29,451 nucleotides of DNA, from positions 1 to 29,451 of the IMG/VR virus record IMGVR_UViG_3300021376_002984; one strand, given 5' to 3'. The notes below the pieces were generated by a model. That model was not told where the DNA came from. It saw only the letters and a program-made list of their open reading frames with translations, and did no database searches. The stretch comes from a virus. Positions 2,702 to 14,212 of this stretch are shown in pieces. Both the position numbers and the translations under genes were made by a program. Positions within the stretch are counted from its first letter, which is position 1. Every line of letters begins with the position of its first letter.

Positions 2702-3518
2702 ATAGTTTTTTAATTTTATCTATTTTTTCGTTTTTTATTTCTTGTCCATTTAATATTGTGTTATGATCATCATATAACATATTAATATTTTTTGGTAAAT
2801 CTTTATAAATATTTTTTCCTAAAGGATATAGATAGCGTTTAAAAGATTCAATATAAATTGGTCTATATGCTTGTACGCCATTGCAAATACCATTTTTCTT
2901 GCCGTTAATGCCAGCGTCTTTCATCATTTTGATTATTTTCATTCTTACTATTGATTGAGAGTGATCAAAATAATAAACATCTTTTCCATCTATTAAGGAA
3001 ACAGCTGCAATATCTTTTACATGTTTTTTAAATGTTCTTTTAGATTTGTAAAAATAAACTTTTTTCACAAAATTATCATTACTGCAAAGATATTCATAAT
3101 TATGCGCACAGCCGCTAGGAACATTAAAATAATCAATTACCCAATAATCATTATTGGTTTTTTTATAAACTGGCGGTAAGCCAATTATATCAGTATCGTC
3201 CGAAATGGTTAATTTTTTAAAATGCATGTTTACTATAAGATTATTTTTAGTAAACACTTTTATTAAATTATCGTTTTCTAATCTTAAAGAATCTATATTA
3301 TTGTTAAATGGTATATAGCTCCCCTGAGATAATAGAAAAGCTAATTTATTCCATAAAGCTTGTTGCTCTAACCAATTTTCTTCCTTGTTGTATTTATGTG
3401 GTTTTGAAATATGTTTATAAATTAAAACACTTTTATTCATATAAGCATATGACAGCGCACTTAAATCACTACCAATAACTAACTGTTCTTGATATAAATC
3501 TAAAGTGCGCTGAAACAT
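2688..3518 (-). CDS. Unknown protein with Rossmann-like N-terminus
   Basis: 276 residues, Lys/Asn/Tyr rich. The N-terminus 'QLVIGSDLSALSYAYMNKSVLIYK' (split here as strand QLVIGSD, helix LSALSYAYMN, strand SVLIYK) looks like the beta-alpha-beta dinucleotide-binding start of FAD/NAD proteins such as UDP-galactopyranose mutase, but the GxGxxG is reduced to GSDLSA. The rest has no motif I can name; a conserved-looking stretch 'GKKNGICNGVQAYRPIYIE' lies near residues 206-224. It is placed between phosphomannomutase (1-base gap) and the nucleotidyltransferase-like gene (14-base overlap), which argues for a role in the same sugar or modification pathway. Function not assigned. Confidence 0.4.
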   Translation of the reverse strand: MFQRTLDLYQEQLVIGSDLSALSYAYMNKSVLIYKHISKPHKYNKEENWLEQQALWNKLAFLLSQGSYIPFNNNIDSLRLENDNLIKVFTKNNLIVNMHFKKLTISDDTDIIGLPPVYKKTNNDYWVIDYFNVPSGCAHNYEYLCSNDNFVKKVYFYKSKRTFKKHVKDIAAVSLIDGKDVYYFDHSQSIVRMKIIKMMKDAGINGKKNGICNGVQAYRPIYIESFKRYLYPLGKNIYKDLPKNINMLYDDHNTILNGQEIKNEKIDKIKKLYGID

Positions 3519-3519
3519 T

Positions 3520-4236
3520 TTATATTAGTTCTAAAATGGTTTGCAAATCTTTAGGACCATTAATCTGATAATAGCCGCTATATTCATCCATATTTTTTAC
3601 TATATCTTCTACTATAGCTCTATCATTTCCTCCCGGCATCGTTTTATCACCAAAGAAAATAATATCAGAATCGGCAACATATTTACGAACATATTTACTA
3701 GCTTGGCTTTTATTGTTTCCTTTATTTTGTATATCAATACTGATTTGCCCTCCTACGCATGCTTCCATATTAGGATAATTTTTATTGATATAATATGCTA
3801 TGCGTTGTCTTTCGCCACTAAGAACATCCCAGTGATAATATGCGTTACGCTCTTCTAAAGAAGAGTCTCTACCAGCAACAGAAAAATTCAACATACCACT
3901 ACGAAATTCTAAATTATTAGTTCTTTTAATAGGATATTCAGATTTTTTTAATTGTTCTTTCAGCCAAAAAATTAATTCATCTTCTATCTTTAGATCATTT
4001 TTATAAATCTGTTTTTCGCCTTTATATAATTCATTAGCCATAGAACAAAAAACACCTTGGCAAGAAAGAATTATTCTTTCGCTTAATTGCTCTTTTACTT
4101 TGGATAAATCGCTTCCAGTAACAAGAAACACCATTCTTTCCTGCATCCAATTAAAAAAGAATTCTTCAAACTCTGGTGTTATTCTTTGTCTTGGCTCTGT
4201 TAACGTACCGTCTATGTCAAATAAATAACTAATCAT
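3520..4236 (-). CDS. Phosphomannomutase, eukaryotic PMM type (HAD superfamily)
   Basis: 238 residues, the usual size of the eukaryotic PMM1/PMM2 family, which interconverts mannose-6-phosphate and mannose-1-phosphate. The catalytic DxDGT is at residues 7-11 (DIDGT); motif 2 is TGSD (40-43); the cap has EFRxGMLNxS followed by GRxxSxEER (110-130), the family's sugar-binding block; then GGQISID (162-168), and the acidic Mg site is FFGDKTMPGGNDRAI (195-209), where human PMM2 reads nearly the same. ATG 4236 overlaps the ThyX gene by 8 bases, with GAGG 6 bases upstream. Bacterial phosphomannomutases normally belong to an unrelated alpha-D-phosphohexomutase family, so this fold in a phage is notable. 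Likely supplies mannose-1-phosphate to the nucleotidyltransferase-like neighbour. Confidence 0.88.
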   Translation of the reverse strand: MISYLFDIDGTLTEPRQRITPEFEEFFFNWMQERMVFLVTGSDLSKVKEQLSERIILSCQGVFCSMANELYKGEKQIYKNDLKIEDELIFWLKEQLKKSEYPIKRTNNLEFRSGMLNFSVAGRDSSLEERNAYYHWDVLSGERQRIAYYINKNYPNMEACVGGQISIDIQNKGNNKSQASKYVRKYVADSDIIFFGDKTMPGGNDRAIVEDIVKNMDEYSGYYQINGPKDLQTILELI

Positions 4237-5674: not shown

Positions 5675-5917
5675 CTATCGGTTAGATATCTTTTGGATCT
5701 CTCCAAGAAGATAACGATACTTCTCCTCTAATCTACCACGTTCTTCTGCCTCTTGTAAATGGTCTAATCGCACTTTGATGCCTGAATCTTTGTTGTCAAT
5801 TATAAGCTTACGATAAAAGCCAAAATCATCAGACATATAATAAGATTCATGAGAAAAACGTATATCACGGCTAGAACGACGGGCTAATTCATTTTCAATA
5901 ATTTTTATATTGAACAT
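5675..5917 (-). CDS. Hypothetical protein (80 aa)
   Basis: 80 residues, charged, no recognised family. The N-terminal half has alternating strands (MFNIKIIENE, FYRKLIIDN) and the C-terminal half is a strongly charged helix with heptad-like spacing (LQEAEERGRLEEKYRYLLGEI) that could form a coiled coil. The start is well supported: the terminator hairpin at 5938-5969 runs through a T-rich tract into GGAGATATAGTT and ATG. It begins a short run of three small genes ending with the GroES-like protein. Confidence 0.5.
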   Translation of the reverse strand: MFNIKIIENELARRSSRDIRFSHESYYMSDDFGFYRKLIIDNKDSGIKVRLDHLQEAEERGRLEEKYRYLLGEIQKISNR

Positions 5918-5929
5918 AACTATATCTCC

Positions 5930-5969
5930 AAAATAAAAACTGCACCATGAAATATAACATGGTGCAGTT
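5930..5969 (-). terminator. Hairpin with T-tract abutting the next ribosome site
   Basis: Perfect 12-bp inverted repeat (AACTGCACCATG / CATGGTGCAGTT, arms 5958-5969 and 5938-5949) with an 8-base loop, followed on the minus strand by TTTATTTT. A standard intrinsic terminator for the tagged gene ending at 5993. The T-tract continues directly into GGAG of the next gene, whose ATG is 20 bases past the stem. Confidence 0.8.
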
Positions 5970-5992: not shown

Positions 5993-6625
5993 CTACCTAT
6001 CTCCATATGGTTCATCACGATGCGCTTCGTCGCGATGCGCTCTAGTCGCAAATGTAACTTTTGAAGGTATATAATATTTATCATGATATGCCCTTAACCA
6101 ATCTTTTTCTGATCCATCTATTTTTGAAACACCTTTCTCTTCTACGCCACCAAGATATAAAAGATATTTAGCCATATTTCCTGTATTATAATTTAATATT
6201 TGAGATGTTCTAGCGGGAATATAATTTTTGGAGTTATATAATGTTTCAGGAAAATTTTGTCTATTAAAATTTTTTATTTCACCAAACAAATCATAAAATT
6301 TATTTAAAACCTTTGTTTTCTCTTCGTCTTCTAAATCAAATGTTTTTTTAGATAATTCATCAGATGTTCTTACAATAAATTTTATTATTTCTTGTCTTTG
6401 ATCTCCTTTAGAGTTTTTTAATTGAGAAACTTTTTTTTGTAATTCTTGTAATGTTTTTAATAAAGATTTAACTTGAAAATTTATAATTTGTTCTTCACCA
6501 CTTTGTTGTATAGAAGGAGTTTTAGAAGAAGAAAATCTACTGGCGGCATCGATAACATCGCCTTCAGTTATTTTATTAATTTCTTCTTTAATAATTTGTT
6601 TCAAATAGTTTTTATTAATTTTCAT
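5993..6625 (-). CDS. Tagged protein A: unknown protein with N-terminal MKIxKxYLxxIIKEE peptide
   Basis: 210 residues. The first 16 residues (MKINKNYLKQIIKEEI) are almost the same as the start of two other genes in this window (6677-7057 and 13709-14146), while the remainder differs. The body is mainly charged helix (residues about 45-110, probable coiled coil) and the tail ends in a tandem AHRDE-AHRDE repeat. No catalytic motif is recognised. AAGGA lies 7 bases before ATG. Followed by a strong hairpin terminator. I infer that the tag directs this protein to a common destination, perhaps the prohead interior, because the I-K-E sequence fits the (I/L)-x-E cleavage rule of T4-type prohead proteases. 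Confidence 0.55.
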   Translation of the reverse strand: MKINKNYLKQIIKEEINKITEGDVIDAASRFSSSKTPSIQQSGEEQIINFQVKSLLKTLQELQKKVSQLKNSKGDQRQEIIKFIVRTSDELSKKTFDLEDEEKTKVLNKFYDLFGEIKNFNRQNFPETLYNSKNYIPARTSQILNYNTGNMAKYLLYLGGVEEKGVSKIDGSEKDWLRAYHDKYYIPSKVTFATRAHRDEAHRDEPYGDR

Positions 6626-6676
6626 TTTTTTATCCTTATAACAAACTATTTTATTGAGGTTTTGATAACGTTCTTT

Positions 6677-7057
6677 TTAATATGTACCTTTTATCCTAAA
6701 CTCAACCCCCGTAAAAACAGGTTTTCCATCTTCCGTGGTTTCGCTACGATACCTAGTAATAGTTTTACCTTGTGAGTTAGCAATCAACTCTGCCATTTGT
6801 AGTCTCTTCCAAGAATCTTTATGATTTTGGTTTAATATTATTTTATCACCTTGTATTTGTCCTAATGATTGAGCTTTTGCGGCTTGGGCACTTAGTTCTT
6901 TAGCTGGTTTGGCTTCAGCATCTGTAGGGGCTAATCCACCCATTAATGCGCTAGCTCCTAAAGCTAAACCTGCTAGTTTATTTCTCCAACCTTCATTAAT
7001 CTCTTTTTGTATTTCTTCTTTAATAATTTCTTGCAAATAACTTTTTTTAATCTTCAT
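6677..7057 (-). CDS. Tagged protein B: N-terminal MKIxKxYLxxIIKEE peptide plus hydrophobic segment
   Basis: 126 residues from ATG 7057 (an upstream in-frame TTG at 7069 would add four residues but leaves no ribosome site). Starts MKIKKSYLQEIIKEEIQKE, the shared tag. Next comes a hydrophobic, small-residue stretch 'LAGLALGASALMGGLAP' followed by an AEA-like sequence, resembling a signal peptide or membrane-insertion segment placed unusually behind a charged helix. The C-terminal half 'HKDSWKRLQMAELIANS' and following strands form a small unassigned domain. The gene lies 19 bases downstream of the ribonucleotide reductase terminator, leaving no room for its own promoter. Confidence 0.5.
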   Translation of the reverse strand: MKIKKSYLQEIIKEEIQKEINEGWRNKLAGLALGASALMGGLAPTDAEAKPAKELSAQAAKAQSLGQIQGDKIILNQNHKDSWKRLQMAELIANSQGKTITRYRSETTEDGKPVFTGVEFRIKGTY

Positions 7058-7067
7058 TATATTTTCC

Positions 7068-7109
7068 AAATAAAACGCCTAAATCACTACAATAAATAGT
7101 GATTTAGGC
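7068..7109 (-). terminator. Hairpin terminator after the ribonucleotide reductase gene
   Basis: Perfect 13-bp stem (GCCTAAATCACTA with TAGTGATTTAGGC; plus-strand arms 7077-7089 and 7097-7109), 7-base loop, followed on the minus strand by GTTTTATTT and then GGAAAATATA-ATG of tagged protein B. Typical intrinsic terminator geometry, directly adjoining the next gene's ribosome site. Confidence 0.8.
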
Positions 7110-7126
7110 AAGTAATTTACCAATTT

Positions 7127-8989
7127 TTATTTAACAGGACAAACTCCACCTTCACACTCCATAGAACTTAATAGCTCACCTTCTCCTACGCCATTATCAA
7201 TATTGATTGGTTTAATCTTGGAAGATAGCTTTTCATATTGCTCCTTACTAATCTTCTCTTTTGGAGCCTGCTTAAAACCATGTTCGCTATGACAAAGGAA
7301 AGATATAGTTTTAAGATATTTAAGATTATCTTTTAACCATACTTTTAGCTGTTCTAGTTCTTCACGTTTATAATACACGGTTACACTAACCGCTTGATCT
7401 GCCCAATGCTTTTGGGCCATTTTAACTACATCTAATTGTTTCCATGTAGTCCATTTTTCATCTGCTACAGGCGCATTGTCAGGAGCAGCAACATAAAAAT
7501 CAACTACAAGCGTATTATGATCTAAAGTACCATCAAAACGCACAGATGGTTCAATATAATGACCAGCTTCTTTTAATAATGGAATAAGTGGATCACTAGC
7601 GGAGAAGCGTACACGTTGAATAATATAACGTGAGTAACCCGGATGCACACCCTCATAGCAATCAAATACTTTGCTGATGGTACCGCTGGGTTTAATTACG
7701 GTTGTACGTATACTTTCTGGAATATTTAATTCTTTTGAATAATCACGATTTTCTTTTTGGATTGCTGCATAAGCACGATCAAGAGTATCGGGATTAAATA
7801 AATTACTTTGTAAGCAACCAGTAATACCAGTACCAATTCTACGATTACGTTTTACTACAGCATCGCATTTTGGTTGATGATATGTTTCTGTAGTTACACG
7901 CTTACCCCAACGATGCATTAATTTTGCTGCTTCAATAAATTCGCTTTCATCTAGCAAATTTGGTAAAGCAATTTCTTGTAGATTGCACGGTTCGCCATCT
8001 TCTAAAGTTGCTTCAGCGCATGGATTTACACCAACTGCGCTATCTGCTTTTAGTTCACCCATACGAGCAAACTTTTGAATATTTTTTCTATTAACAATAC
8101 CAAATGGTTCACCTTGTTCATATGTTTTCCAGAATAGCGGATGCAAATCTTCTGTATCATCGACAACAACAGAATAGTTTGCCATAGCACGTTGTGTAGG
8201 GATATTACCCAAATCCCAACGCTTTGCTTTTAGGTATTCTTTATCCCAAGGATCACCAAGAATAATGATAGCGCTGCGACGAACATTACCAGCAACAACC
8301 ATTTCGCCAATAGAACAAAGTATATCTGCTGCATCTACGGGACGCAAATGACGACCTTCACGGCTTTTTAAAATAGCTACCAACTTATCAACAAAAAGAA
8401 TTAATGGCTTAGGACCGCTGCTGGTTCCGCCAAAGCCCTTAATTGGCTCACCAGCAGGGCGAACGCAGACAGTAGAATAAGAGAAAGACTTACCAGTAGA
8501 GAAATAAGATTCAAGAATACGCCTTGTTAGCTCATTCCAACCTTCACGGGAATCAGGTACTATAAAGTCTGCATCTTTGCTATCACGATTAAGTACAGAT
8601 ACATCTTTTTTTAACTTTGGTAATTTGCTGACAAAGCGATGTTCTACGCTCATGCCAACACCACCACCAAGCATTAGCAAATCTTGCGCTAATACAAAGT
8701 TATTCCATTCATCTCCAGCTACAAACCAGCAATTGTTTAATGCAACGCCACCAAGCTTTTTGTGACTTGGAGCGCCACTATACCACCAACCACGTCCAGC
8801 TGGTCCAGCTTTGCGATTCATCAAATAATAACGCAAACGCTCAATTTCTTGAGCAGTTACATTATGACCTTGAACATTTCCTGCAATTACTCGTTCTACA
8901 GTATCTGCCCAATTTTCGAGAGTACCAGTATCTTTACGAGCATAGGTACGCTTATAAACAACTTTCGCAAGGTTAGACCAGTTAGACAT
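7127..8989 (-). CDS. nrdJ: Adenosylcobalamin-dependent (class II, monomeric) ribonucleoside-triphosphate reductase
   Basis: 620 residues. Reduces ribonucleotides to deoxyribonucleotides, supplying phage DNA synthesis without oxygen dependence, using host vitamin B12 coenzyme. Key residues by position: N-terminal redox Cys in 'LNNCWFV' (C87), radical site 'VNPCAEATL' (C324, E326), partner Cys in 'EPCNLQE' (C335), phosphate-binding 'KPSGTIS', and the C-terminal swinging-arm pair C612/C617 with C-x4-C spacing, as in Lactobacillus leichmannii RTPR (739 residues). The shorter length suggests loss of part of the N-terminal regulatory region. Thioredoxin is the next gene upstream and would re-reduce the C-terminal pair. 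No beta subunit or NrdD-type glycyl radical site is seen, supporting class II. Confidence 0.92.
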   Translation of the reverse strand: MSNWSNLAKVVYKRTYARKDTGTLENWADTVERVIAGNVQGHNVTAQEIERLRYYLMNRKAGPAGRGWWYSGAPSHKKLGGVALNNCWFVAGDEWNNFVLAQDLLMLGGGVGMSVEHRFVSKLPKLKKDVSVLNRDSKDADFIVPDSREGWNELTRRILESYFSTGKSFSYSTVCVRPAGEPIKGFGGTSSGPKPLILFVDKLVAILKSREGRHLRPVDAADILCSIGEMVVAGNVRRSAIIILGDPWDKEYLKAKRWDLGNIPTQRAMANYSVVVDDTEDLHPLFWKTYEQGEPFGIVNRKNIQKFARMGELKADSAVGVNPCAEATLEDGEPCNLQEIALPNLLDESEFIEAAKLMHRWGKRVTTETYHQPKCDAVVKRNRRIGTGITGCLQSNLFNPDTLDRAYAAIQKENRDYSKELNIPESIRTTVIKPSGTISKVFDCYEGVHPGYSRYIIQRVRFSASDPLIPLLKEAGHYIEPSVRFDGTLDHNTLVVDFYVAAPDNAPVADEKWTTWKQLDVVKMAQKHWADQAVSVTVYYKREELEQLKVWLKDNLKYLKTISFLCHSEHGFKQAPKEKISKEQYEKLSSKIKPINIDNGVGEGELLSSMECEGGVCPVK

Positions 8990-9001
8990 TTTATGTACTC
9001 C

Positions 9002-9256
9002 TTATTGGTTAATAAATGCTTTAAGTTTTTCTACTGTTGCTCCACCACTCATACGAGCAACTTCTTGGGTACCATTAAGTAGTACAAAAGTTGGAACAGC
9101 GAAAATATTAAATTGTTCTGCTAAATGCATCTCCTCATCAACGTCAACTAGTTGATATTCCACACTATTTACACTTTCTTTAAGTGTATTGAAATGTGGT
9201 TTTGTACGTTGACAAGGTTGGCACCACGCCCCACTAAACATAATCAACTTTTTCAT
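9002..9256 (-). CDS. Thioredoxin-like protein
   Basis: 84 residues from ATG 9256, preceded by AAAGGAG at 7 bases; the longer in-frame reading to 9313 lies inside the upstream gene and adds a basic segment foreign to the fold. Active site 'SGAWCQPC' (residues 8-15), central acidic strand 'YQLVDVDEE', and the cis-proline loop 'FAVPTFVLL' are all in the expected order; it is a minimal thioredoxin, shorter than the 105-residue host type. Lies 12 bases upstream of the class II ribonucleotide reductase and most likely serves as its reductant. Confidence 0.9.
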   Translation of the reverse strand: MKKLIMFSGAWCQPCQRTKPHFNTLKESVNSVEYQLVDVDEEMHLAEQFNIFAVPTFVLLNGTQEVARMSGGATVEKLKAFINQ

Positions 9257-9524
9257 TTTCGTTCTCCTTTTTATATTCCAGTGCTTCAATATAACCAATC
9301 TTTGCTTTAGCATTCATTGGATTATTAACAGCAAATTCAACTGCACTTTTTTTAGGTAAAAGATAACATTCTATACCTAATCTTTTTGTTTTTAACCATT
9401 CCAAAGGCATGATAATTAAATTCATAAATACTAAACCAAAAATTGGTTTGTGAATTTTCATAATTTTACCATTTGGATATTGTGTATAACCAAATAACTT
9501 CAAAAAAAATGTTTTAAACGTCAT
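9234..9524 (-). CDS. Hypothetical small protein with one hydrophobic segment
   Basis: 96 residues. A hydrophobic run 'PIFGLVFMNLIIMPLEWL' (about residues 27-44) could cross or lie along a membrane; the remainder is basic, with an acidic/basic mixed tail. No family recognised. It starts 3 bases after the helicase stop and its end overlaps the thioredoxin start by 23 bases, so it sits inside a coupled helicase-to-reductase run. Reality is supported by packing alone. Confidence 0.45.
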   Translation of the reverse strand: MTFKTFFLKLFGYTQYPNGKIMKIHKPIFGLVFMNLIIMPLEWLKTKRLGIECYLLPKKSAVEFAVNNPMNAKAKIGYIEALEYKKENENEKVDYV

Positions 9525-9527
9525 AAA

Positions 9528-10910
9528 TTATCCTTTCTTTTCTTTCTTATACGACTTGTATTTTTCCTTCAAATTTGCTTCTTGCTTCTTTGTTGCTTTT
9601 TCAATTATTTCTGTTGCTGTTTCACTGCTTTGAGAAAGTACCTTTATTTTAACATTACTTGTATCCATGAATATAGGAAAAACTAACCCATCCGGACCAT
9701 TTCTATTTTTGGCAACAAATAGTCTGCCTTCATTCATGTTTTTATCTTTGATTGTTCTAGAGATAGTGAAGATAAAATCAGCGACGAAACACTTGTTAAA
9801 AGCTTCGCTAATGCTTTCCATAGTGATTACTTCTGCATTAAGACCAGAACGATTTGTTTGCGAAGCTGTCCAAAGCGAACATTGATAAACTTGCGCTAAC
9901 CCACGCAGTTCTTCATAAATGCTTTCAATTTCAATCCGCTTCTCCTTCTGAGCGTTTATTGGTCTAATTAGATCGCCGTAATCTACAATTACCATATCAA
10001 TGCGAAAATCTTTACGCTTTAGCTTTTCAAGATGGTGTTTAATTGTATTAGTTGAGGCAGACTTGGTTGGATATTCCTTAATAATCAGCTTGCCTTTAAC
10101 GTCTTTAACACCATTCCAAACAATATCTTTCTGTTCTTTTACATCAGTAAGAGAGATGCCTGTGATGCAAGAATCATATCGCAAAGCTACAACCTTATCT
10201 TGTAGCTCAAGAGTATAATGTACTACGTTTAAACCTGCTTGTAAGGCCATAGCGCCAAGATGTACCAATGCCATGCTTTTACCAGCGCCTGTAGGAGCGA
10301 TTACTACACCAAGTTCACCACGACCAAGACCACCCTTGGTAATATTATCAATTAATTCCCATCCAGTACTAACTGGATTTCTAGCTTTTAACTCAAAGCG
10401 TTTTTCAAAGTCAACAATAAAATCATAACCATGATTATTGTCCGTTCCCAACTTAAGAGCATCATTAATGATTTTGCTGATTTCATCATAGGATGAGTTT
10501 TGAATAAGTCCAACACTTTTGATCATAGCCTCCTTAAGCTTTTGCTTCTTACAAAAATCAAGAGAAATATCTTTGATATGTTGTTCGCCATCTAAACTAA
10601 ATTCATTGCTGCTTATTCTAGCATAAAAATCACGAACTTGCTTTTGCAGCAATTCATTTTCTTTTTCTAATTCAGTACGTAAAATAGTTGTAATTGTATC
10701 CCGCGATGGATGCGTACCATACTTCTTGCGATATTCTAACACCTTGTCTACAAACACCCGTAGATATTTTAATTCAAAGAAACTTACATCCATGATTTCG
10801 GAAATCTGATCACAGAAGCTACGATCATCAAGCATAATCTGTACAAGATTTTCTTGAAATACCTTACCATAGCGCTCAAAAGATACTGCGTCCTTCAAAA
10901 AGTCGCTCAT
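9528..10910 (-). CDS. DnaB-family replicative helicase (T4 gp41-like)
   Basis: 460 residues, typical for phage DnaB/gp41 helicases, which unwind the replication fork as a hexameric ring. The N-terminal 150 residues are helical (primase-interacting part). The RecA-like core starts near residue 180 with 'VSTGWELIDNITKGGLGRGE', Walker A 'APTGAGKS' (205-212), a catalytic Glu in 'HYTLELQ', Walker B 'MVIVDYGDLI' and the H4/sensor element 'LWTASQTNRSG', followed by 'FVADFIFTISRT'. The tail is lysine-rich. No separate primase gene is seen in the window; a primase may lie elsewhere. Transcribed just after the 5' nuclease gene. Confidence 0.92.
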   Translation of the reverse strand: MSDFLKDAVSFERYGKVFQENLVQIMLDDRSFCDQISEIMDVSFFELKYLRVFVDKVLEYRKKYGTHPSRDTITTILRTELEKENELLQKQVRDFYARISSNEFSLDGEQHIKDISLDFCKKQKLKEAMIKSVGLIQNSSYDEISKIINDALKLGTDNNHGYDFIVDFEKRFELKARNPVSTGWELIDNITKGGLGRGELGVVIAPTGAGKSMALVHLGAMALQAGLNVVHYTLELQDKVVALRYDSCITGISLTDVKEQKDIVWNGVKDVKGKLIIKEYPTKSASTNTIKHHLEKLKRKDFRIDMVIVDYGDLIRPINAQKEKRIEIESIYEELRGLAQVYQCSLWTASQTNRSGLNAEVITMESISEAFNKCFVADFIFTISRTIKDKNMNEGRLFVAKNRNGPDGLVFPIFMDTSNVKIKVLSQSSETATEIIEKATKKQEANLKEKYKSYKKEKKG

Positions 10911-10948
10911 ATATTCCTCAAAAAGTTTATAGATGATACACTGCGTTG

Positions 10949-11914
10949 CTAGCAGTTTTCAAGAACTATCTTATGCATCTGGATAAACAGTTCTTCCCAA
11001 TTATTCTGCCCAAAACCATCTTGCAACATCATTTTAACGATATCAGTTTTTTGAAACGTGCATTCACTATTGTTTAGCGCATAATCAATTTTTTGAGAAT
11101 CTTGTATAGATATGCTTGGAGAATATAGTTGCATCAATTTGTAGTTTTCTTTTATCAAATCTTGATTATCGCAGATGTTTTTATAAAGCTTTATATCAGA
11201 ATCTATGCTGGCACAATAATCAAATATTTCTTGAAGCATTAAACTTTTTTCTTCTTTTACCTGCGGGATCCTCTTACTAATAGTAGGAATACCAGCGCCG
11301 CCAACACCGCCCAGATTATCGCTCTTATCACCCGAAATGGCGCGTACCAAGCAGAAATTATTAGGATGGACTCCATATTCTTGTATTATCCTTTTTGTAT
11401 TTAAATATTCATCTTTTACTGGTCTATAAAGAATCGTTTTGCTATTACATAATTGAATAAAATCTTTATCGTTAGAAACAATAACTTTATAGTAATCATT
11501 TAAATCTGTATGACCTACAACAGCTGAAATAATATCGTCAGCCTCAACGCTATCTAATAGTATTTGAATAACTGGCATTTTATTAAGATATTCAGCAAGT
11601 CTGGTCATTTGCCATATCTTGTTTTTTAATTCATCATCACCTTCAAGTATTTGAACGTTTCTATTTAAACGCAATGGCTTACGTCCATCTTTATAATTTT
11701 TATTTACCACTCTACGTTTCGTAGAGCCACCTTTACCATCCCAACAAATAACAATACGATTTGGTTTTATTTCTCTGCATAGTTTTTGCAGAGATTTAAT
11801 AAAACCAAATACACCACCTATTGGATCTCCACTGGTGGATACAGCGGGATTCATAACATAATTTCTTATGTATAAATTATTGGCATCAATTACTAATATC
11901 TTTTTTCCATCCAT
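10949..11914 (-). CDS. 5'-3' exonuclease / flap endonuclease (T4 RNase H family)
   Basis: 321 residues. N-terminal metal site 'KILVIDANNL' (D10), 'RIVICWDG' as the second acidic strand, 'DSVEADDIIS' (the family's EADD cluster), 'KVIVSNDKDF' (SxDxDF), and the helix-hairpin-helix/DNA-binding block 'GDKSDNLGGVGGAG' around residues 194-207. These are the ordered motifs of FEN/5'-nuclease enzymes, which remove RNA primers and 5' flaps during lagging-strand synthesis. The polymerase encoded here has no 5' nuclease domain, so this separate protein would fill that role. The gene's start overlaps the preceding small gene by 29 bases; AGGA lies 9 bases upstream of the ATG. Confidence 0.92.
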   Translation of the reverse strand: MDGKKILVIDANNLYIRNYVMNPAVSTSGDPIGGVFGFIKSLQKLCREIKPNRIVICWDGKGGSTKRRVVNKNYKDGRKPLRLNRNVQILEGDDELKNKIWQMTRLAEYLNKMPVIQILLDSVEADDIISAVVGHTDLNDYYKVIVSNDKDFIQLCNSKTILYRPVKDEYLNTKRIIQEYGVHPNNFCLVRAISGDKSDNLGGVGGAGIPTISKRIPQVKEEKSLMLQEIFDYCASIDSDIKLYKNICDNQDLIKENYKLMQLYSPSISIQDSQKIDYALNNSECTFQKTDIVKMMLQDGFGQNNWEELFIQMHKIVLENC

Positions 11915-12197
11915 TTTGGAAGTCCTTGGAATCTTTAACGTGTTGTTTGGCTGCTTCTACAATTTCATCATATCTTTTATCGCCAAGCAATTCTTGTACT
12001 TTTTGTAGACATTCAAATCCAATATCATTTTTAATAGCTACATTAATCAGCCAATAAGCACATTTTTCTAATGCAATATTTAATTCTGCATTTTGGTTTA
12101 TCAGAGACATGGTTTCTACACACAATTTTCTGATTTCATCATTTAATTGTTCATTCTGCTCTTTAACTCTTAAATAATCATTTTCTGTAATATTCAT
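11886..12197 (-). CDS. Hypothetical coiled-coil protein (103 aa)
   Basis: 103 residues. Residues 5-45 form a likely coiled coil (YLRVKEQNEQLNDEIRKL and following heptads), the middle has a small hydrophobic helix containing C and W (KCAYWLINVAI), and the C-terminus is basic. No family recognised. It begins 3 bases after the deaminase gene's stop and overlaps the 5' nuclease gene by 29 bases, so it is probably co-translated with it. Confidence 0.5.
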   Translation of the reverse strand: MNITENDYLRVKEQNEQLNDEIRKLCVETMSLINQNAELNIALEKCAYWLINVAIKNDIGFECLQKVQELLGDKRYDEIVEAAKQHVKDSKDFQNGWKKDISN

Positions 12198-12200
12198 AAA

Positions 12201-12669
12201 TTAGAACTTATAGGATCCCACTACTTCATTATCAACAGTGTAATAAACCTTCTTGATACCACGCTCCTGCATAATTGCATGACACATATTACAAGGCTTG
12301 CTCATACGTGCATCAATTCCATTCTTGGAACAACGAGCAACGTACATAACGGAACCCTTGGTTACGTTGCGATCTAACGAGAGGATCGCCTTGATTTCCG
12401 CATGGTACGTGGCGTTTCCTTTGTCTTCGGGACGGTAATCCTTTCCAACTGAACAATACCGCTCTGAATTGATCCCCAAGCCAACAATAGCGCCGCCTCG
12501 CACAAGAACCGCACCATGTCTAAAATTACCATAAGTAGAGTTGCCAGCGAGCTTTTTAGCCAGCTGGAAGATACCTCCGAACTTTTTTAGATGCCTCCTC
12601 TCTTGGAATATGGGTATCCTCTATGTCGCTATGCTTCTTCGTATACGTCTGCGTCGGATCCGGGTTCAT
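12201..12669 (-). CDS. dCMP/cytidine-deaminase-like protein with an interrupted reading frame
   Basis: Zinc-dependent deaminase fold: 'YHAEIKAIL' supplies the His ligand and catalytic Glu, and 'PCNMCHAIM' the two Cys ligands; likely deaminates dCMP to dUMP, the substrate of ThyX. The uninterrupted frame (12201-12503, GTG start) is too short, because family N-terminal sequence continues upstream without a start codon (LAKKLAGNSTYGNFRHGAVLV). A separate 37-codon ORF starts at ATG 12669 with AAGGAG 6 bases upstream and stops at 12556. The two frames join if one base of the six-A run at 12583-12588 (minus strand AAAAAA) is skipped, giving 155 residues. Either +1/-2 frameshifting, a real mutation or a sequencing error explains this. 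Confidence 0.75.
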
Positions 12670-12706
12670 GTGTAGCTCCTTAGAAAGTGTGTGTATAGTA
12701 GCAATC

Positions 12707-13636
12707 TTATACCGCTATGTCAAACTGTTTTCGCATCTGTAGAACAGCAAGATTTTTCATTTTTGCTTCTACGTCTACATCAACAAGGTTATCACGAATA
12801 GCTGCTAGCTGTAAATCAGGAACATGATGAATATAATTTGAATGCGCTCTACGTTGAGTATAAGAACCGTTTTCCATTCCCGGTTCTGTATTTGAAATGT
12901 GCTGCAATGGTTTAATCTTTCCCCATGTTTTAGTTGTCTCAAGAAATGCATCTACGAAAGATAGATCATTGCTTCCAAAAGTATAGTGATGAGAATCAAA
13001 GACGACAGGAATACCAGTTTTTTCGTGAACATATAATAGATCCTTTACATTGTAGCACTTTTCATCGTTTTCAAGAGTTAAACGCTTCTTGACATTATCT
13101 GGGAGGATAGAATAAGTTTGTGCAATTTTATCTGCACGGTCTTTCTTGCCACCGTGAATATTAATTGCATAATAGGGAGTTTGTTCAAAACCCATCATGT
13201 CAAAAATCCATGCATGATATTCAAGTTCACGAATGCTATTTGTAATTACTTTGTCGCTATCACTAGAGATTACAGTAAATTGACCGGGATGGCAAGTAAC
13301 ACGAATATTATTTTTATGGAATAAGCCACCAAGATAAGCAAGCTTATTTATTAGCACTTGATCATTCTTTGCAAGATTACTACAAAACTCAAAGAGCGGA
13401 AATAAAGTACTAGTAAGCCTGAAAGATTTAATATTATTTTCAAGAAGTTTAGGAAATATCTTGATGTGCTGATCAACATTATTGTGATACGTAGCAACGA
13501 TTTTTTCCTGTGAATATTTACCAGCTTTGTATGCTCCAAGTTGGAGCATTTTTTCATCAATAAGATTTACAATTTCTTTAGTACCATTACGCTTAGTTTG
13601 TTCTTCAACCCACTGACAACAGACGCTAAGACCCAT
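12707..13636 (-). CDS. uvsE: UV damage endonuclease (UvsE/UVDE)
   Basis: 309 residues from ATG 13636, preceded by GGAGG 4 bases away; the upstream in-frame GTG at 13660 lies inside a terminator hairpin and is rejected. The TIM-barrel UVDE motifs occur in order: 'FRLTSTLFPL', 'VTCHPGQFTV', 'YAINIHGGKKD', 'LTLENDE', 'VVFDSHHY', 'HISNTEPG' and 'RAHSNYI', which provide the His/Glu/Asp ligands for the trinuclear metal centre. The enzyme nicks DNA 5' of UV photoproducts, starting excision repair. Length matches bacterial UvsE. It stands alone between a hairpin terminator and the deaminase gene. Presence suggests an environment with light or other DNA damage. Confidence 0.93.
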   Translation of the reverse strand: MGLSVCCQWVEEQTKRNGTKEIVNLIDEKMLQLGAYKAGKYSQEKIVATYHNNVDQHIKIFPKLLENNIKSFRLTSTLFPLFEFCSNLAKNDQVLINKLAYLGGLFHKNNIRVTCHPGQFTVISSDSDKVITNSIRELEYHAWIFDMMGFEQTPYYAINIHGGKKDRADKIAQTYSILPDNVKKRLTLENDEKCYNVKDLLYVHEKTGIPVVFDSHHYTFGSNDLSFVDAFLETTKTWGKIKPLQHISNTEPGMENGSYTQRRAHSNYIHHVPDLQLAAIRDNLVDVDVEAKMKNLAVLQMRKQFDIAV

Positions 13637-13644
13637 AGAACCTC

Positions 13645-13684
13645 CAAAAGAAAACCGCACCAGCTATTCTACACTGGTGCGGTT
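13645..13684 (-). terminator. Hairpin terminator between tagged protein C and UvsE
   Basis: 11-bp perfect stem (AACCGCACCAG / CTGGTGCGGTT; arms 13674-13684 and 13653-13663), 10-base loop, then TTCTTTT on the minus strand leading into GGAGG and the uvsE ATG, 16 bases past the stem. Confidence 0.8.
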
Positions 13685-13708
13685 AAACAGGCAAGAGAGA
13701 TAAAATTA

Positions 13709-14146
13709 TTATTTAGTAAATTGGGCTTTTGTTACGGGAGGAAGACCAAAAAACTTTTCAGTATCATTGGAGGCGTATTTATGCGCTCTAGTACTGCCAT
13801 CAGCAGCCTTATATTTATTAAAAACATAATTATTATAATAATCCTGTAAATCTTTACCTAAACCACCAGATTTTATCATCAGAATATATTGTTCTGGTAG
13901 GTTAATCATTTGACCTTTTATTGCGTTAGACATTTTAGGATTATTTACTAACTTAGATTTAACTAATTGTTTAATCTCTTTGGTTGGTGGCTCGTTTAAC
14001 ATTTTTTTCACTACCGTTTCTTCATCGTTCATAATAGTGTCCATATAATCGCCTTGTCTAAAGCCTTTCTTAAATTGACCCTCTATCACAGCTTTTTCTA
14101 ATTCCTCTTTAATAATTTGCTTCAAATATTGTTTTGTAATTTTCAT
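13709..14146 (-). CDS. Tagged protein C: unknown protein with N-terminal MKIxKxYLxxIIKEE peptide
   Basis: 145 residues. Begins MKITKQYLKQIIKEELEKA, the same tag as proteins A and B; beyond the tag there is no evident similarity apart from a short 'TRAH' near the C-terminus shared with protein A. The body is helical and basic with 'YNNYVFNKYKAADGSTRAH' towards the end; no catalytic motif. It is a single-gene unit flanked by two hairpins (14157-14192 upstream, 13653-13684 downstream). The GGAGG ribosome site is part of the upstream hairpin's 3' arm, 11 bases from ATG. Confidence 0.55.
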   Translation of the reverse strand: MKITKQYLKQIIKEELEKAVIEGQFKKGFRQGDYMDTIMNDEETVVKKMLNEPPTKEIKQLVKSKLVNNPKMSNAIKGQMINLPEQYILMIKSGGLGKDLQDYYNNYVFNKYKAADGSTRAHKYASNDTEKFFGLPPVTKAQFTK

Positions 14147-14156
14147 ATATTACATT

Positions 14157-14192
14157 GCCTCCGATATGCTATTAATTAGTAATATCGGAGGC
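14157..14192 (-). promoter_or_regulatory. Hairpin that sequesters the ribosome site of tagged protein C
   Basis: 11-bp perfect stem (GCCTCCGATAT / ATATCGGAGGC; plus arms 14157-14167 and 14182-14192). On the minus strand the 3' arm ends ATCGGAGGC, so the GGAGG Shine-Dalgarno is paired. No T-tract follows (AATGTAATAT then ATG), unlike the other hairpins, so this may act more as a translational switch or processing site than as a terminator of the recombinase gene. Confidence 0.6.
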
Positions 14193-14212
14193 AAAGTTCC
14201 TTGTAACTTTTA

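Follow-up and report, generated by a model that had tools for sequence, protein, structure and literature searches.

What a common N-terminal peptide does on otherwise unrelated proteins is the question raised by three genes of an uncultured phage, all of them located in a virus record of 29,451 bases (label G000; "the window" refers here to this whole stretch of analysed DNA). The window is a segment of a T4-like phage, whose minus strand encodes UvsX, single-strand binding protein, family A DNA polymerase, a ribonucleotide reductase (RNR)-like protein, and T4-type baseplate proteins.

Tagged genes in the window

The tagged ORFs at 13709-14146, 6677-7057, and 5993-6625 (all minus strand) have MKI-x-K-x-YL-x-x-IIKEE in common at their N-termini, which read MKITKQYLKQIIKEELEKAVIEG (start 14146), MKIKKSYLQEIIKEEIQKEINEG (start 7057), and MKINKNYLKQIIKEEINKITEG (start 6625) on the minus strand. 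A preliminary description of this DNA held that the three genes share this tag and then diverge, which agrees with their ORFs and N-termini as well as with the lack of mutual similarity among the three mature parts once the leader is removed (blastp, best E 0.85). The pattern search proposed there was run on the window DNA; as a degenerate DNA pattern, the tag gave three matches, which are these three genes alone, and the reversed pattern gave none. Searches of the three proteins against Pfam and PHROGs returned no assignment. The shared N-terminus is real, while the common element ends at residue 21-22 and not at residue 15 as first described. The leaders, mature parts, and neighbouring hairpins are as follows:

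14155..14194, minus strand: hairpin TTGCCTCCGATAT..ATATCGGAGGCAA in the interval between uvsX and tagged gene 1, without a T run after it
14081..14146, minus strand: leader 1, residues 1-22, MKITKQYLKQIIKEELEKAVIE; cut predicted from sequence at VIE22/G23
13709..14080, minus strand: mature part 1, residues 23-145 and stop, in the slot flanked by uvsX and a UV-damage endonuclease-like gene; no family match
13653..13684, minus strand: terminator-like hairpin 3' of tagged gene 1
7076..7110, minus strand: terminator-like hairpin separating tagged gene 2 from the RNR-like gene
6992..7057, minus strand: leader 2, residues 1-22, MKIKKSYLQEIIKEEIQKEINE; cut predicted from sequence at INE22/G23
6677..6991, minus strand: mature part 2, residues 23-126 and stop, in the slot downstream of the RNR-like gene
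6563..6625, minus strand: leader 3, residues 1-21, MKINKNYLKQIIKEEINKITE; cut predicted from sequence at ITE21/G22
5993..6562, minus strand: mature part 3, residues 22-210 and stop; homologue at the same slot in the relative G009
5938..5969, minus strand: terminator-like hairpin 3' of tagged gene 3

The tagged genes are bounded by terminator-like hairpins, in the manner of separate transcription units. AF2 models of two of the proteins are of low confidence (mean pLDDT 45 and 58). Tagged protein 1 is modelled with a helix at residues 5-21 that ends at the predicted cut, and tagged protein 3 with a helix at 5-21, a low-confidence linker at 20-46, and a helical region beyond. A helix followed by a low-confidence stretch, as modelled in both, is consistent with a detachable leader.

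Specificity of the leader

A degenerate DNA pattern for the tag matches 47 stretches in IMG/VR. A relaxed pattern gave 89 matches in 33 other tag-carrying contigs and 0 when reversed, and a scan of 1.12 Mb of related phage DNA with a position-specific matrix yielded 156 distinct ORFs that carry the tag, compared with 0 after reversal of the sequence; a chance origin of the tag was rejected on these two comparisons. The contigs of the matrix census were chosen for carrying the tag, and the unbiased figure comes from 257 Gb of scanned prokaryote contigs, in which the strict tag was found in ten stretches on seven contigs only. Several of these contigs carry many consecutive tags and two lie in assemblies that also contain gp21, so the tagged "prokaryote" contigs are likely misassigned phage DNA. 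Up to 11 tags were observed on NHDW01000006.1 (L129) and PBIO01000025.1 (L130), which are binned in the MAGs Methylococcaceae TMED69 and Halobacteriovorax SP2999 and are probably phage contigs credited to the wrong organism.

Among 50,697 GenBank phage records, a tblastn search with the bare tag found no close versions except in LR756508, an uncultured huge phage (484 kb) whose protease and capsid genes are surrounded by ten or more tagged ORFs. Allowing one mismatch, the relaxed pattern gave 0 matches in T4, RM378, Mel-JY01, and immuto. Two weaker tag-like N-termini, MKKSQLRQIIKEAL... and MGKVNKAYIENIIKEIL..., were picked out by the matrix in the cultured Flavobacterium phage immuto (L116:1185-1655, 3189-3947).

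At the conserved leader positions, synonymous codons are free to vary while the residues are kept, so selection acts on the peptide. The shared start might instead be a DNA- or RNA-level element, such as a recombination site or a translation enhancer, with the peptide being incidental, and a common 5' segment would indeed aid cassette exchange; this explanation is extremely improbable, because third codon positions vary freely, changes within the leader are conservative, and its end carries a motif at the protein level.

Candidate cut motif closing the leader

The leader comprises 21-22 residues, approximately MKITKxYLxxIIKEELxxxLxE, and mostly ends with [L/I/V]-x-E. Beyond the positions that were searched, residue 16 is hydrophobic, residues 19-20 are mostly hydrophobic, and E peaks at residues 21-22. 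The motif [LIVM]xE, whose leader-end positions lay outside the search pattern, has its E at residues 18-24 in 59/83 non-redundant tagged proteins (71%), as against 26.4 +- 3.8 proteins when residues 16-26 are shuffled, and its frequency drops sharply to ~8% past residue 24 in the same proteins. It occurs at 18-24 in 72% of a wider tagged set and in 20% of untagged ORF N-termini from these phages; an E/L-rich amphipathic helix favours the motif by itself, yet helix-prone N-termini reach 32% only. The residue following this E is mostly G, S, A, or E, and ~28% of the tagged proteins have no [LIVM]xE at residues 18-24.

Cleavage by gp21, the prohead protease of T4, takes place after L/I-x-E (PMC9026906). 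A cut after I12-K13-E14, as put forward in the preliminary description, fits the gp21 rule and is possible, but [LIV]-x-E at residues 19-22 is the better candidate. Judged from its sequence, IKE at residue 14 could be a second cut site, and propeptides cut more than once are known. Internal [LI]xE was not clearly depleted in the mature parts, with a ratio of 1.14 for tagged and 1.20 for untagged proteins (ratios without bootstrap).

gp21, gp23, and the position of the tagged genes

The prohead protease gp21 (PF03420) was detected in 15/34 tag-bearing records, many or most of which are short fragments. All 15 gp21 N-termini contain LTE near residues 19-24, which from its sequence is a possible self-cut site. 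Among the gp23 proteins, 11 sequences carry L[RK]E followed by A or S, which aligns to the T4 cut site (LTE65/A66) and is located directly before the conserved mature capsid sequence. The window encodes neither gp21 nor gp23, so it is tied to them through its close relatives only.

In the gp21 loci, 15/33 tagged ORFs of the matrix set are located within 2 kb of gp21 (p = 9e-4); with the strict pattern, clustering near gp21 has p = 0.006 at 1.5 kb and is not significant at 12 kb. The gp21-adjacent tagged genes occupy the interval between portal and gp21 or directly follow gp21, where T4 has genes 67 and 68, while the majority of tagged genes, including the three of the window, are not close to gp21. 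The late-promoter signal TATAAATA was absent upstream of the tagged genes and of the other ORFs of these phages alike.

Host machinery is the target of many early proteins of T4-like phages, and the amphipathic, K/E-rich leader might accordingly dock another partner, such as host RNA polymerase, a membrane, the tail, or a degradation machine, with the Glu motif being a by-product of the amphipathic helix. This is improbable, since tagged genes cluster beside gp21 and the motif is far above helix-prone controls and falls to background level after residue 24.

Two other genes near gp21 were also observed. In L066-L080, a conserved gene of ~130 aa beside gp21 (e.g., L078:10614-10991, L076:16310-16702) starts with MKKxELKxLIKPLIKECIKEVLxEEG, which is tag-like with a two-residue offset; this gene may encode a core protein that is related to the tag. 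In almost every locus of L051-L065, the interval from portal to gp21 encodes a small conserved membrane-like protein with a CPMC(M/V)GFWVG motif, upstream of gp21 and the tagged genes.

Tagged genes in near relatives

The UvsX of the window shares 97% identity with that of G009, 95% with G013, 88% with G026, 86% with G022, and 77% with G023, and both gp21 and gp23 are encoded by G013, G022, and G023. The gp23 of G023 appears closest to those of far-T4-like phages, with Flavobacterium phage immuto, Microcystis phage Mel-JY01, and RM378 as the nearest cultured records, and would tentatively place the group with far-T4-like phages.

The slot between uvsX and the UV-endonuclease-like gene holds a tagged gene in the window and in G023, with different mature parts, and is without a tagged gene in G009, G013, G022, and G026. 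Between the RNR-like gene and a small gene at 5675, there are two tagged genes in the window, one in G009, and none in G013, while the RNR-side slot of G026 holds two other tagged genes (423 and 240 aa). With 42% over 129 aa, the tagged protein of G009 is homologous to window tagged protein 3, and it carries the same leader. The replication genes flanking both slots stay conserved, and the tagged genes are present, absent, or exchanged.

Mature parts of the tagged proteins

The mature parts fall into ~123 families at E 1e-3, including 111 singletons. Most tagged proteins (median 131 aa) have no recognisable domain. Exceptions are a pentapeptide-repeat protein of 617 aa (L085:5295-7148) and a sigma-70 region 2 protein of 383 aa (L081:10399-11550), which are candidates for delivered transcription or topoisomerase modulators, and a tagged protein of L068 has a weak match to 5'-nucleotidase.

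The three window proteins might also be diverged copies of one domain family, with the leader as a remnant of common descent, in keeping with an N-terminus common to all three and with two of the genes adjoining each other. One homologous folded domain common to the three proteins, which the preliminary description had named as a finding that would speak against a targeting tag, was looked for and not found. Common descent of the three is highly improbable, given the lack of similarity after removal of the leader, the number of mature families, the known unrelated domains that follow the same leader, and the models, in which, at low confidence, the leader forms a helix of its own and is followed by a poorly ordered stretch.

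Mature part 2 of the window (6677..6991) has a hydrophobic stretch at its start, at about residues 28-47. In the protein of 6677-7057 and in L077:10349-10861, which are unrelated to each other, the post-leader hydrophobic stretch has an AxA-like end and resembles a signal peptide; these two proteins are possibly exported or inserted into a membrane after delivery.

In LR756508 (L119:22697-28573), a series of paralogues after the MCP gene has a shorter common start, MKLKxLLxE, and a conserved LYRGT-like motif; this start resembles a second leader type of 10 residues. The paralogues were suspected to be ADP-ribosyltransferases, for which Pfam gave no match and no support.

Comparison with known systems

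In T4, the capsid-targeting sequence (CTS) of IPI, IPII, IPIII, and Alt is likewise a short N-terminal propeptide on small proteins that are otherwise unrelated, and it likewise ends with a gp21-type L/I-x-E. The T4 CTS alone suffices for the packaging of foreign proteins (PMC9026906, PMC3012670). Judged by sequence, the leader matches the T4 CTS in every feature that can be tested in this way, including unrelated mature parts, the end motif, and a gp21 with motif-bearing substrates. Unlike the leader of ~22 residues, the T4 CTS has 10 residues and an MKTYQEF start, and there is no detectable homology between them; tagged proteins are also many more per genome in the tag-bearing phages than CTS proteins in T4. 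The T4 CTS pattern was absent from the tag-bearing genomes tested and was found only in T4 ipII and ipIII. Since these genomes lack MKTYQEF, T4 lacks the tag, and the lengths differ, the leader is not the T4 CTS by descent. T4 ipII and ipIII, which are far from gene 21, adjoin the UV-repair gene denV, and tagged gene 1 of the window is also located beside a UV-repair-like gene, which may be a coincidence.

Ejection proteins of the giant phages phiKZ and SPN3US also have shared N-termini, which are removed after Glu by a gp21-related protease (PMC5694885, PMC9026906). Those propeptides differ from the present leader in cut specificity (S/A-x-E or A-x-E), in leader sequence, and in phage lineage. 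T4 gp67 and gp68 are encoded at the same genomic place, between portal and gp21, and gp67 contains LIKEEK..FLIEG; however, neither has significant profile similarity to the conserved family encoded after gp21, and hhalign found no homology of this family to T4 gp67, gp68, gp22, or gp21.

According to this position, the leader might be a signal for the prohead core, with the tagged proteins acting as gp67/gp68-like assembly factors that are consumed in the prohead without reaching the host. Tagged genes do cluster at the gp67/68 position beside gp21, and the conserved post-gp21 gene has a tag-like N-terminus ending with EEG. However, most tagged genes are far from gp21 and are present, absent, or swapped among close relatives; sigma-70 region 2 and pentapeptide repeats, being enzyme-like or regulatory, are unlike essential core parts; and the mature parts are not enriched in internal cut motifs. 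We consider a purely assembly-related role unlikely.

In the far-T4 paper (Roux et al. 2015, PMC4360716), there is no mention of internal proteins, of the prohead, or of a signal for capsid targeting. Among titles and abstracts using the term "capsid targeting sequence", a set that covers few subscription journals, none points to these phages, and no earlier description of the leader was found.

Proposed role and significance

The preliminary description likened the tag to the T4 targeting peptide. The likeness is upheld by the leader-end motif, gp21 and gp23 in relatives, clustering, and swapped mature parts, but does not extend to the sequence, which is not that of the T4 CTS. The leader is very probably a capsid-targeting propeptide of far-T4 phages that is cut by gp21, equivalent to the T4 CTS in function and not in sequence.

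We infer the docking, cleavage, packaging, and ejection of tagged proteins as follows. The leader, as an amphipathic helix, would let unrelated proteins dock on the core of the prohead (scaffold, core proteins, and gp21) during head assembly; where the helix ends, gp21 would then cut after [L/I/V]-x-E, and the mature protein would stay in the head, packed with the DNA. Tagged genes adjoining gp21 may encode core proteins. In analogy to the internal proteins of T4, at least the accessory tagged proteins, including the three of the window, are probably ejected into the host at infection, where they might serve as anti-defence or takeover factors. On balance, we slightly favour the broader proposal that, in far-T4 and related huge phages, one interchangeable leader loads a large and fast-changing arsenal of proteins, including sigma-factor-like and pentapeptide-repeat proteins, which is delivered with the DNA, and that the leader alone reveals the delivered set.

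If this is true, an N-terminal profile would pick candidate virion-packaged, host-delivered proteins from the unknown genes of an abundant group of uncultured phages, and unknown small phage proteins of more than 120 families would become testable candidates for anti-defence or host takeover. The leader would also provide a second packaging signal for loading cargo into phage heads. Furthermore, the strategy of T4, in which a fixed targeting peptide is combined with changing cargo, would reach a distant lineage that uses a different peptide.
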